Assembly (NCBI GenBank): GCA_021200535.1
Contig: JAJQGL010000112.1
Span: 20,561 to 84,560 of the forward strand
Length of the DNA: 64,000 nt
DNA from: Clostridiaceae bacterium
Lineage (GTDB): Bacteria > Bacillota > Clostridia > Lachnospirales > Lachnospiraceae
Direction: 5' to 3'
Part shown: one piece after another, positions 21,147-22,943 of the stretch
How the letters are laid out: the number at the start of each line of letters is the position of its first letter
Numbering within the stretch: the first letter of the stretch is position 1
Notes under the pieces: model-generated
What the model was told of the DNA's origin: nothing
The model's input: only the letters and a program-made list of their open reading frames with translations
Database searches by the model: none
Position numbers and translations under genes: made by a program

Positions 21147-22844
21147 TTAATTTTCACCCTGCAATGCGTCAAAGCCTTCCTCTCCGGTACGAACCTTAAC
21201 AACATTTTCAACATCATATACAAAAATCTTTCCATCACCAATATTTCCGGTATAAAGCGCTTTTCTCGCCGTTTCGATTACCTTGTCAACCGGTACGGCA
21301 CTGACAATAACCTCTACCTTCATTTTCGGAAGAAGCACAATATCAAGCTCCGCACCACGGTATCTGGTTGTCATGCCTTTCTGTGTACCACAGCCAAGGA
21401 CATTTGTTACCGTAATTCCGTTGATGCCAATGTCGTTCATTGCCTGCTTCAAATCCTCAAACTTGCTCTGCTGGCAGACAATAGATACCTTTGTAATCTT
21501 TGCGACACCGGTATTTTCCGTATTCTTCGGCTTCATGGCTGCAGGCTCAGGCACTCTGACAACCTCCACAGCCTTCTCAACCGGAACCTCACCCTTTAAC
21601 GTTTCAATAGGTGTACCGGCAGAATAGAACATGTTTCCTGCAGGCATAAAGTCTGCATATGCTGACGGCAGTCCATGCTCTGTCACATCCAGGCCCCGTA
21701 ATTCTTCTTCCGGAGAAACACGCAGACCCCATACCTTATTTAAAACATAAAATACAATACTCATGGTAATGGCAGCATAAGCTGCTACTGTAATAACGCC
21801 AAGGCACTGAACTCCCAGCAGATGGAAACCGCCGCCATAGAACAGACCCTGATTATCATATACTGCAAAAAGGCCAACTGCAACCGTACCAAACGCACCA
21901 TTAAATCCATGTACGGCAACCGCACCAACCGGATCGTCTACCTTTAAGACATTCTCAACAAACCATACTCCGAAACAGCAGATCAGGCCGGCACAGATAC
22001 CAATAATAATGGCTCCCAAACCATCCACCGAATCACAACCGGCTGTAATCGCTACCAGACCGGCCAAAGAACCGTTCAGTGACATTGACACATCCGGTTT
22101 TCCATATTTTACCCATGTAAAAATCATCGCGGATATCGTTGCAAACGCCGGCGCAAGTGTCGTGGTCGCAAAGATTCTCGCCAGATGGTCTATATCTCCA
22201 GCTGCTGCACCGTTAAAGCCATACCATCCAAACCAGAGGATAAAGACGCCAAGCGCACCCAGCGGAAGATTATGTCCCGGAAATGCATGCGGTTTTCCTG
22301 TCCGCTTACTAAACTTACCGATACGCGGTCCGAGAAAAGCTGCACCGATCAGCGCGGTAACACCGCCTACCATATGGATTACCGTAGAACCGGCAAAATC
22401 AATAAAACCAAGCTTAGCTAACCATCCATTTGCATTCCAGGTCCAACCTGCCTCAATCGGATAGATCACTGCACTGATAATAGCGGAATACACACAGTAC
22501 ATACTAAACTTCGTCCGCTCTGCCATGGCTCCGGAAACGATTGTTGCACAAGTTGCGCAGAACACAAGCTGAAATACAAAATTGCTCCAGTCAAAGCCCT
22601 CAAAATTCGTAAACATATCATATTCCGGCTGGCCAATAACGCCTCCAATGTAGTTTCCCGAATTCATAATTCCGTATCCAAGTACAATAAACACCACTGT
22701 ACCAATACAAAAATCCATCAGGTTTTTCATGATAATATTACCTGCATTTTTTGCCCTGGTAAAGCCTGCCTCCACCATTGCAAATCCGGCCTGCATCCAG
22801 AATACCAATGCAGCGCCTAATAGATACCAAATACTCATATCCAT
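21147..22844 (-). CDS. amtB: ammonium transporter (Amt/Rh) with fused C-terminal PII (GlnB/GlnK) domain
   Basis: Amt core (WYLLGAALVFWMQAGFAMVEAGFTRAKNAGNIIMKN; GVAVGLFAVYD region), then PII domain KITKVSIVCQQSKFEDLKQAMNDIGINGITVTNVLGCGTQKGMTTRYRGAELDIVLLPKMKVEVIV...ALYTGNIGDGKIFVYDVENVVKVRTGEEG in one uninterrupted ORF. Confidence 0.95.
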   Translation of the reverse strand: MDMSIWYLLGAALVFWMQAGFAMVEAGFTRAKNAGNIIMKNLMDFCIGTVVFIVLGYGIMNSGNYIGGVIGQPEYDMFTNFEGFDWSNFVFQLVFCATCATIVSGAMAERTKFSMYCVYSAIISAVIYPIEAGWTWNANGWLAKLGFIDFAGSTVIHMVGGVTALIGAAFLGPRIGKFSKRTGKPHAFPGHNLPLGALGVFILWFGWYGFNGAAAGDIDHLARIFATTTLAPAFATISAMIFTWVKYGKPDVSMSLNGSLAGLVAITAGCDSVDGLGAIIIGICAGLICCFGVWFVENVLKVDDPVGAVAVHGFNGAFGTVAVGLFAVYDNQGLFYGGGFHLLGVQCLGVITVAAYAAITMSIVFYVLNKVWGLRVSPEEELRGLDVTEHGLPSAYADFMPAGNMFYSAGTPIETLKGEVPVEKAVEVVRVPEPAAMKPKNTENTGVAKITKVSIVCQQSKFEDLKQAMNDIGINGITVTNVLGCGTQKGMTTRYRGAELDIVLLPKMKVEVIVSAVPVDKVIETARKALYTGNIGDGKIFVYDVENVVKVRTGEEGFDALQGEN

Positions 22845-22866
22845 TTAAACTCCTCCTCTCTTTTTC

Positions 22867-22904
22867 AAAAAAAAAGATGTCACGAATCTCTTCGTGACAT
22901 CTTT
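22867..22904 (-). terminator. perfect hairpin plus T9 run in the amtB leader, terminator/attenuator-like
   Basis: AAAGATGTCACGAA-GAGA-TTCGTGACATCTTT (14-bp perfect arms) followed by T-run, just upstream of the amtB RBS. Confidence 0.85.
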
Positions 22905-22915
22905 GTCATAACATT

Positions 22916-22943
22916 ATTATATACAAACAGCGCTTTCTGTCAA
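22916..22943 (-). promoter_or_regulatory. sigma-70 promoter of amtB
   Basis: Minus strand TTGACA-16 nt-TATAAT; both hexamers match consensus exactly. Confidence 0.88.

Follow-up and report, generated by a model that had tools for sequence, protein, structure and literature searches.

Antitermination of nitrogen genes by ANTAR proteins is known, and predicted targets include ammonium transporter genes (PMC3369931). In the eut genes, the 13-nt ANTAR consensus AGCAANGRRGCUY overlaps the 5' part of the terminators, and the canonical P1 hairpin is located upstream, separated by a linker of approximately 5-12 nt (PMC3369931). Two hexaloops are required by EutV in vivo (PMC3369931) and by NasR for full activity; the affinity of NasR for a single hairpin is about 12-fold below that for a pair (PMC7496416). 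The EutV-RNA structure indicates that the dimer engages a single hexaloop per RNA molecule at any moment; its authors question, on this basis, the need for two hairpins, reduce the minimal ANTAR target to one hexaloop and encourage the search for natural sites of this kind (PMC8934654). Furthermore, phosphorylation of the receiver-like domain of AmiR is impossible (PMC8934654).

Here we describe the leader of an amtB-PII gene found in a window of 64,000 nucleotides, which is the whole stretch of DNA that was analysed, from a gut-type bacterium. Just past the amtB promoter lies a candidate RNA stop switch, probably unlocked by a regulator encoded next to glnA. On the minus strand, the order of elements is TTGACA-N16-TATAAT, AATGTT, ATGACAAAGATGTCACGAAGAGATTCGTGACATCTTTTTTTTT, GAGGAGG and the amtB start (ATG 22844). 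Sequence inspection and a promoter scan placed the -35 box TTGACA at 22938-22943 and the -10 box TATAAT at 22916-22921, separated by 16 nt, with a predicted +1 at A22909. This promoter (22943-22916) is the sole 12/12 match within the 6 kb scanned. Folding, a terminator scan and compensatory changes identified an intrinsic terminator that begins at about +6 relative to the predicted start. Its stem-loop (22904-22873, minus strand) comprises 14 perfect pairs and a GAGA loop, and is followed by a T9 tract (22867-22875) whose first three T are within the stem. No other terminator found in the 6 kb scanned has as many pairs, and the leader folds at -20.9 kcal/mol compared to -12.2 +/- 2.5 for shuffled sequences (z -3.5). 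A ribosome-binding site recognized by eye (GAGGAGG, 22850-22859) precedes the regulated gene (21147-22844, minus strand), which encodes an amtB-PII fusion of 565 aa (PF00909, E 5e-122; PF00543, E 5e-24). The transporter and its PII regulator are thus a single protein, and the fusion is kept in the relatives examined. All these elements agree with the earlier note on this DNA, which had described a consensus promoter, a 14-bp hairpin, a T9 tract and a ribosome-binding site ahead of amtB. A 9-codon mini-ORF (AUGACAAAG...) running from +1 was discarded, as it has no ribosome-binding site and its AUG is missing in AGC-type leaders.

The 5' end of the RNA can also fold into a small hairpin, UGAC[AAAGAU]GUCA (22895-22908, minus strand), with a hexaloop bearing A1 and G4. 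Conservation and compensatory changes led us to propose this hairpin as the ANTAR site and antiterminator. It shares positions 22904-22895 with the terminator: the terminator's 5' arm is made up of the loop and 3' strand of the hairpin, and therefore the two folds are mutually exclusive. In the window, the terminator does not include the 5' UGAC, which is nevertheless invariant across the same-genus AmtB-PII leaders. In the same-genus leaders, the promoter is kept, ATGACAARGNNGTCA is found about 7 nt downstream, and a terminator with a freely varying apical loop follows. Folding of increasing lengths of the transcript predicts the 5' hairpin (-3 to -4 kcal/mol) once about 14 nt are present, ahead of terminator formation, and the terminator (-19.8 kcal/mol) prevails from about 30 nt. 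The hairpin is thus too weak on its own against the terminator and would need a stabilizer. The earlier note had chosen another ANTAR-like loop, AGAGAU, one step downstream within the terminator (CGA[AGAGAU]UCG, 22883-22894, minus strand). This possible second hexaloop occurs in only 4/25 same-genus leaders, is probably incidental, and was rejected as the regulatory loop in favor of AAAGAU.

Conservation was assessed on 105 amtB-PII leaders: 25 from the same genus (23 AmtB-PII and 2 ahead of a divergent second amt gene) and 80 loci from further genomes, the majority of which are Clostridia MAGs. The detector called a C-G-closed hexaloop with A/G at position 1, G at position 4 and 3 bp or more, provided that it overlapped the 5' arm of a terminator with no fewer than 8 bp. 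The element was detected in 86/105 leaders (25/25 same-genus and 61/80 more distant ones) compared to 34/1050 shuffled leaders (3.2%); pairing, A/G at position 1, G4 and the C-G closure are fixed by the detector, counts on these features are not independent, and the species are related. Outside the detector criteria, position 5 of the loop is a purine in 85/86 elements and position 2 is A in 86/86, although A2 served to choose between detector matches. The loop core CAANGRNG is present in 80/86 elements. Across 47 aligned elements, the hexaloop stem exhibited compensatory changes at 3/4 pairs, with a covariation of 0.70 (0.28 when shuffled, 0.02-0.18 when slid), and the terminator at 9/14 pairs, with a covariation of 0.70 compared to 0.31 when shuffled. 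The arms found across Clostridia are of the types AGC/GCU, GAC/GUC, CAC/GUG, UGC/GCA and GGC/GCC. As this variation would suggest, a strict promoter-plus-sequence pattern proved too narrow, matching in 8/299 genomes at the family level, because the stem sequence varies. The alignment of related leaders, which the earlier note had proposed as a check, revealed that the hairpin is kept in relatives and that both folds covary; the lack of conservation that the note had named among its grounds for refutation was thus not observed. The divergent second amt gene of two genomes (L030 and L031) shares this layout, and its loop starts with G (GAAGAU). A palindrome, GTCCGGAC, was also observed 17-81 nt past the attenuator terminator in 15/25 same-genus amtB leaders (L003, L004, L006, L007, L009-L011, L013, L015-L017, L019, L023, L025 and L029), and is absent from the very short leader of the window.

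In 59/84 leaders, a promoter of at least 9/12 ends 6-13 nt upstream of the third hairpin pair, compared to 0.8 expected from shuffles, which places the predicted RNA start within a few nucleotides of the hairpin. A P1 hairpin would occupy at least 12 nt, plus a linker of 5-12 nt; since the start site abuts the hexaloop, there is no room for it. The usual two-hairpin arrangement, which the earlier note had found not to be evident, is truly absent, as the start site abuts a single conserved hexaloop. In the leader scan, upstream A1/G4 hexaloops (16 compared to 10.3 expected) barely exceeded chance, none was conserved, and most were located in promoter DNA. One candidate recruitment hexaloop, ACAG[AAAGCG]CUGU, was rejected: it lies within the -35/-10 spacer, would stay untranscribed and is missing in relatives. 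Measured against the dual-hexaloop definition of Ramesh 2012, the leader has the A1/G4 hexaloop at the 5' base of a terminator with mutually exclusive folds, and lacks the second, upstream hexaloop. Further downstream, mostly at 60-150 nt, 16 leaders contain a second hexaloop element with its own terminator. In L108, L132, L142, L144 and L157, amtB is preceded by tandem attenuators, with the hexaloop-terminator unit occurring two or three times in succession.

The search for an ANTAR regulator suggested by the earlier note revealed exactly one ANTAR protein in the genome, P0002, whose gene starts 36 nt past glnA and ahead of carAB. The glnA-ANTAR order was found in every locus in which both genes were identifiable, within the genus as well as across diverse Clostridia. 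The ANTAR domain of P0002 (PF03861) scored 50.1 bits against a curated cut-off of 27.3, and the protein aligns to EutV and Rv1626 along most of its length. In its AlphaFold model (pLDDT 86), a receiver-like domain is followed by a long helix and an ANTAR bundle; the best structure matches of the model are EutV-RNA, EutV and Rv1626 (6ww6, 6wsh and 1s8n). P0002 is an ANTAR protein of the EutV/Rv1626 architecture. The phospho-acceptor Asp54, expected of a phosphorylation-controlled response regulator, is Gly in P0002 and non-Asp in 35/39 proteins, and the hydrophobic plug Met172 is kept in 38/38. At the position of Tyr164, an RNA-contact residue of EutV, 37/39 proteins carry His, and Lys147 is not kept; RNA recognition may therefore differ from that of EutV. 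An ANTAR gene was present in 57/58 genomes with the element compared to 11/19 without it (Fisher p 3e-5), in draft assemblies whose absences are uncertain. The sole element-bearing genome without a visible ANTAR gene (L121) is itself a draft assembly. No hexaloop attenuator was seen at glnA itself in ten glnA upstream regions.

From these observations, we consider it likely that transcription of amtB-PII is attenuated in its promoter-proximal leader, and that this attenuator is read by the ANTAR protein encoded directly downstream of glnA. The attenuation or antitermination control and the ANTAR link put forward in the earlier note are thus well supported by conservation, covariation and the co-occurrence of the glnA-linked ANTAR gene, apart from its choice of hexaloop. 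In the proposed mechanism, RNA polymerase would start at about 22909, and the first 15 nt would fold into the weak hexaloop hairpin. An ANTAR protein on the loop would hold the 5' strand of the terminator, allowing passage through the U-tract and transcription of amtB-PII. With no ANTAR protein on the loop, the 14-bp terminator would form and transcription would stop after about 42 nt; the tiny abundant 5' RNA suggested in the earlier note may exist as this terminated product. Because the weak hairpin needs a stabilizer and CAANGRNG has the form of the eut consensus AGCAANGRRGCUY, we infer that the glnA-linked ANTAR protein binds the AAAGAU loop and favors read-through. A single hexaloop would suffice at this leader. 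As the regulated gene is an ammonium transporter, antitermination makes most sense when ammonium is scarce and would presumably act under nitrogen limitation. The signal probably reaches the ANTAR protein through contact with a protein or a ligand, and not through phosphorylation.

Other readings of the leader fit the data less well. The two hairpins UGAC[AAAGAU]GUCA and CGA[AGAGAU]UCG could form a canonical dual-hexaloop site without a linker, with ANTAR binding both. A1 and G4 are present in both loops, the two-hairpin fold is briefly the best one for a growing RNA of 28 nt, and second hexaloops within the terminator were found in 18/85 leaders compared to 4.9 by shuffling, a count inflated by the inverted repeats there. 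However, the second loop is restricted to 4/25 same-genus leaders, with a sequence free to vary in the others, and the linker is 0 nt here, whereas eutP is impaired already at 3 nt (PMC3369931). We consider such a site rather unlikely. The missing second hexaloop and the fact that ANTAR binding was deduced could instead point to attenuation by another loop-binding factor, either a non-ANTAR RNA-binding protein or a metabolite, with a chance co-occurrence of ANTAR. Against this improbable alternative, the loop consensus is that of ANTAR sites, the co-occurrence is significant, and an Rfam search of the leader returned no relevant family and no match above the gathering score.

The palindrome TGAC-N6-GTCA at +2 overlaps with the start site and does not vary among the AmtB-PII leaders of the genus, and could also be a DNA operator for a repressor, leaving the terminator a secondary role. 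Yet across Clostridia its arms change in compensation around six central bases that keep the form AANGRN, which is the signature of an RNA hairpin, and the palindrome stays locked to a terminator, making an operator very unlikely. It is just as hard to credit that the terminated RNA of about 42 nt, as a small RNA or an ANTAR sponge, is the purpose of the unit rather than control of amtB. The strong promoter and perfect terminator do predict an abundant short RNA, for which the E. faecalis EutX RNA with its ANTAR sites offers a precedent (PMC8934654), but the element is found ahead of nitrogen genes, within their leaders, and the loci examined show no conservation of it as an independent unit. 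Attenuation relieved by the glnA-linked ANTAR protein remains our preferred reading. Whether it extends to a widespread class of attenuators is, in our judgment, an evenly balanced question. In such a class, one hexaloop at the 5' end would be used, promoter proximity would replace the upstream recruitment hairpin, either through slow early transcription or through an RNA end free of competing structure, and the glnA-linked, non-phosphorylatable ANTAR lineage with the Tyr164-to-His change would be specialized for it.

When the elements were turned into a covariance model, the model ranked the amtB site first in most genomes of the genus; in the genome of the window, this site scored 51 bits and all others at most 30. 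Elements with this anatomy were also found ahead of other operons. Ornithine-cyclodeaminase / tyramine-oxidase-B operons of amine catabolism carry one in G001, G011, G015 and the genome of the window (L241), and a CP-ATP-grasp / Alpha-E / transglutaminase operon does so in G004, in G015 and again in the genome of the window (L240; G000:C44:37965-38010, minus strand). Others are located before a PII gene, gltB in G022 and an aminotransferase gene. The scores of L240 and L241 are near the ordinary-terminator background, and their support comes from anatomy and recurrence in relatives. The leader found in three genus genomes suggests that the CP-ATP-grasp / Alpha-E / transglutaminase-like operon has a role in nitrogen metabolism. 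We also observed UGGAC[AAAGGU]GUCC with a terminator in the 326-nt rpmD-rplO gap of the ribosomal spc operon in the genome of the window (L238; G000:C60:61543-61592, minus strand), which may be due to chance.

Altogether, the amtB-PII leaders of Clostridia look like natural single-hexaloop ANTAR attenuators that fall outside the published dual-hairpin definition, and the layout suggests that ammonium uptake and other nitrogen genes in Clostridia sharing it are controlled through antitermination by a regulator from the glnA operon. These leaders provide dozens of candidate single-hexaloop sites associated with terminators, and a named partner gene to go with them, making the question of one versus two hairpins directly testable.

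Ammonium transporter, PII and glutamate/glutamine synthase genes are among the predicted ANTAR targets (PMC3369931), and the elements described here share these gene classes and the same ANTAR logic. Some of the amtB leaders may already be listed among the targets predicted by Ramesh 2012. Those searches required a dual hairpin, a definition that the amtB-PII leaders would fail. Like the eut/EutV system of Enterococcus faecalis (PMC3369931, PMC8934654), the amtB system combines an A1/G4 hexaloop at the 5' base of a terminator, mutually exclusive folds and a probable ANTAR regulator. In contrast, eut has a recruitment hexaloop 5-12 nt upstream and a phosphorylated EutV, whereas the amtB leader has no room upstream and its proposed regulator mostly lacks the Asp (35/39) and carries His in place of Tyr164. 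The antitermination of nitrogen genes by ANTAR proteins proposed here is shared with NasR/nasF (PMC7496416) and AmiR/amiE, and the receiver-like domain of the regulator is not phosphorylatable, as in AmiR. Unlike the amtB leader, both of these systems have two hairpins, and NasR has a NIT nitrate domain; unlike NasR and AmiR, the regulator described here is linked to glnA.
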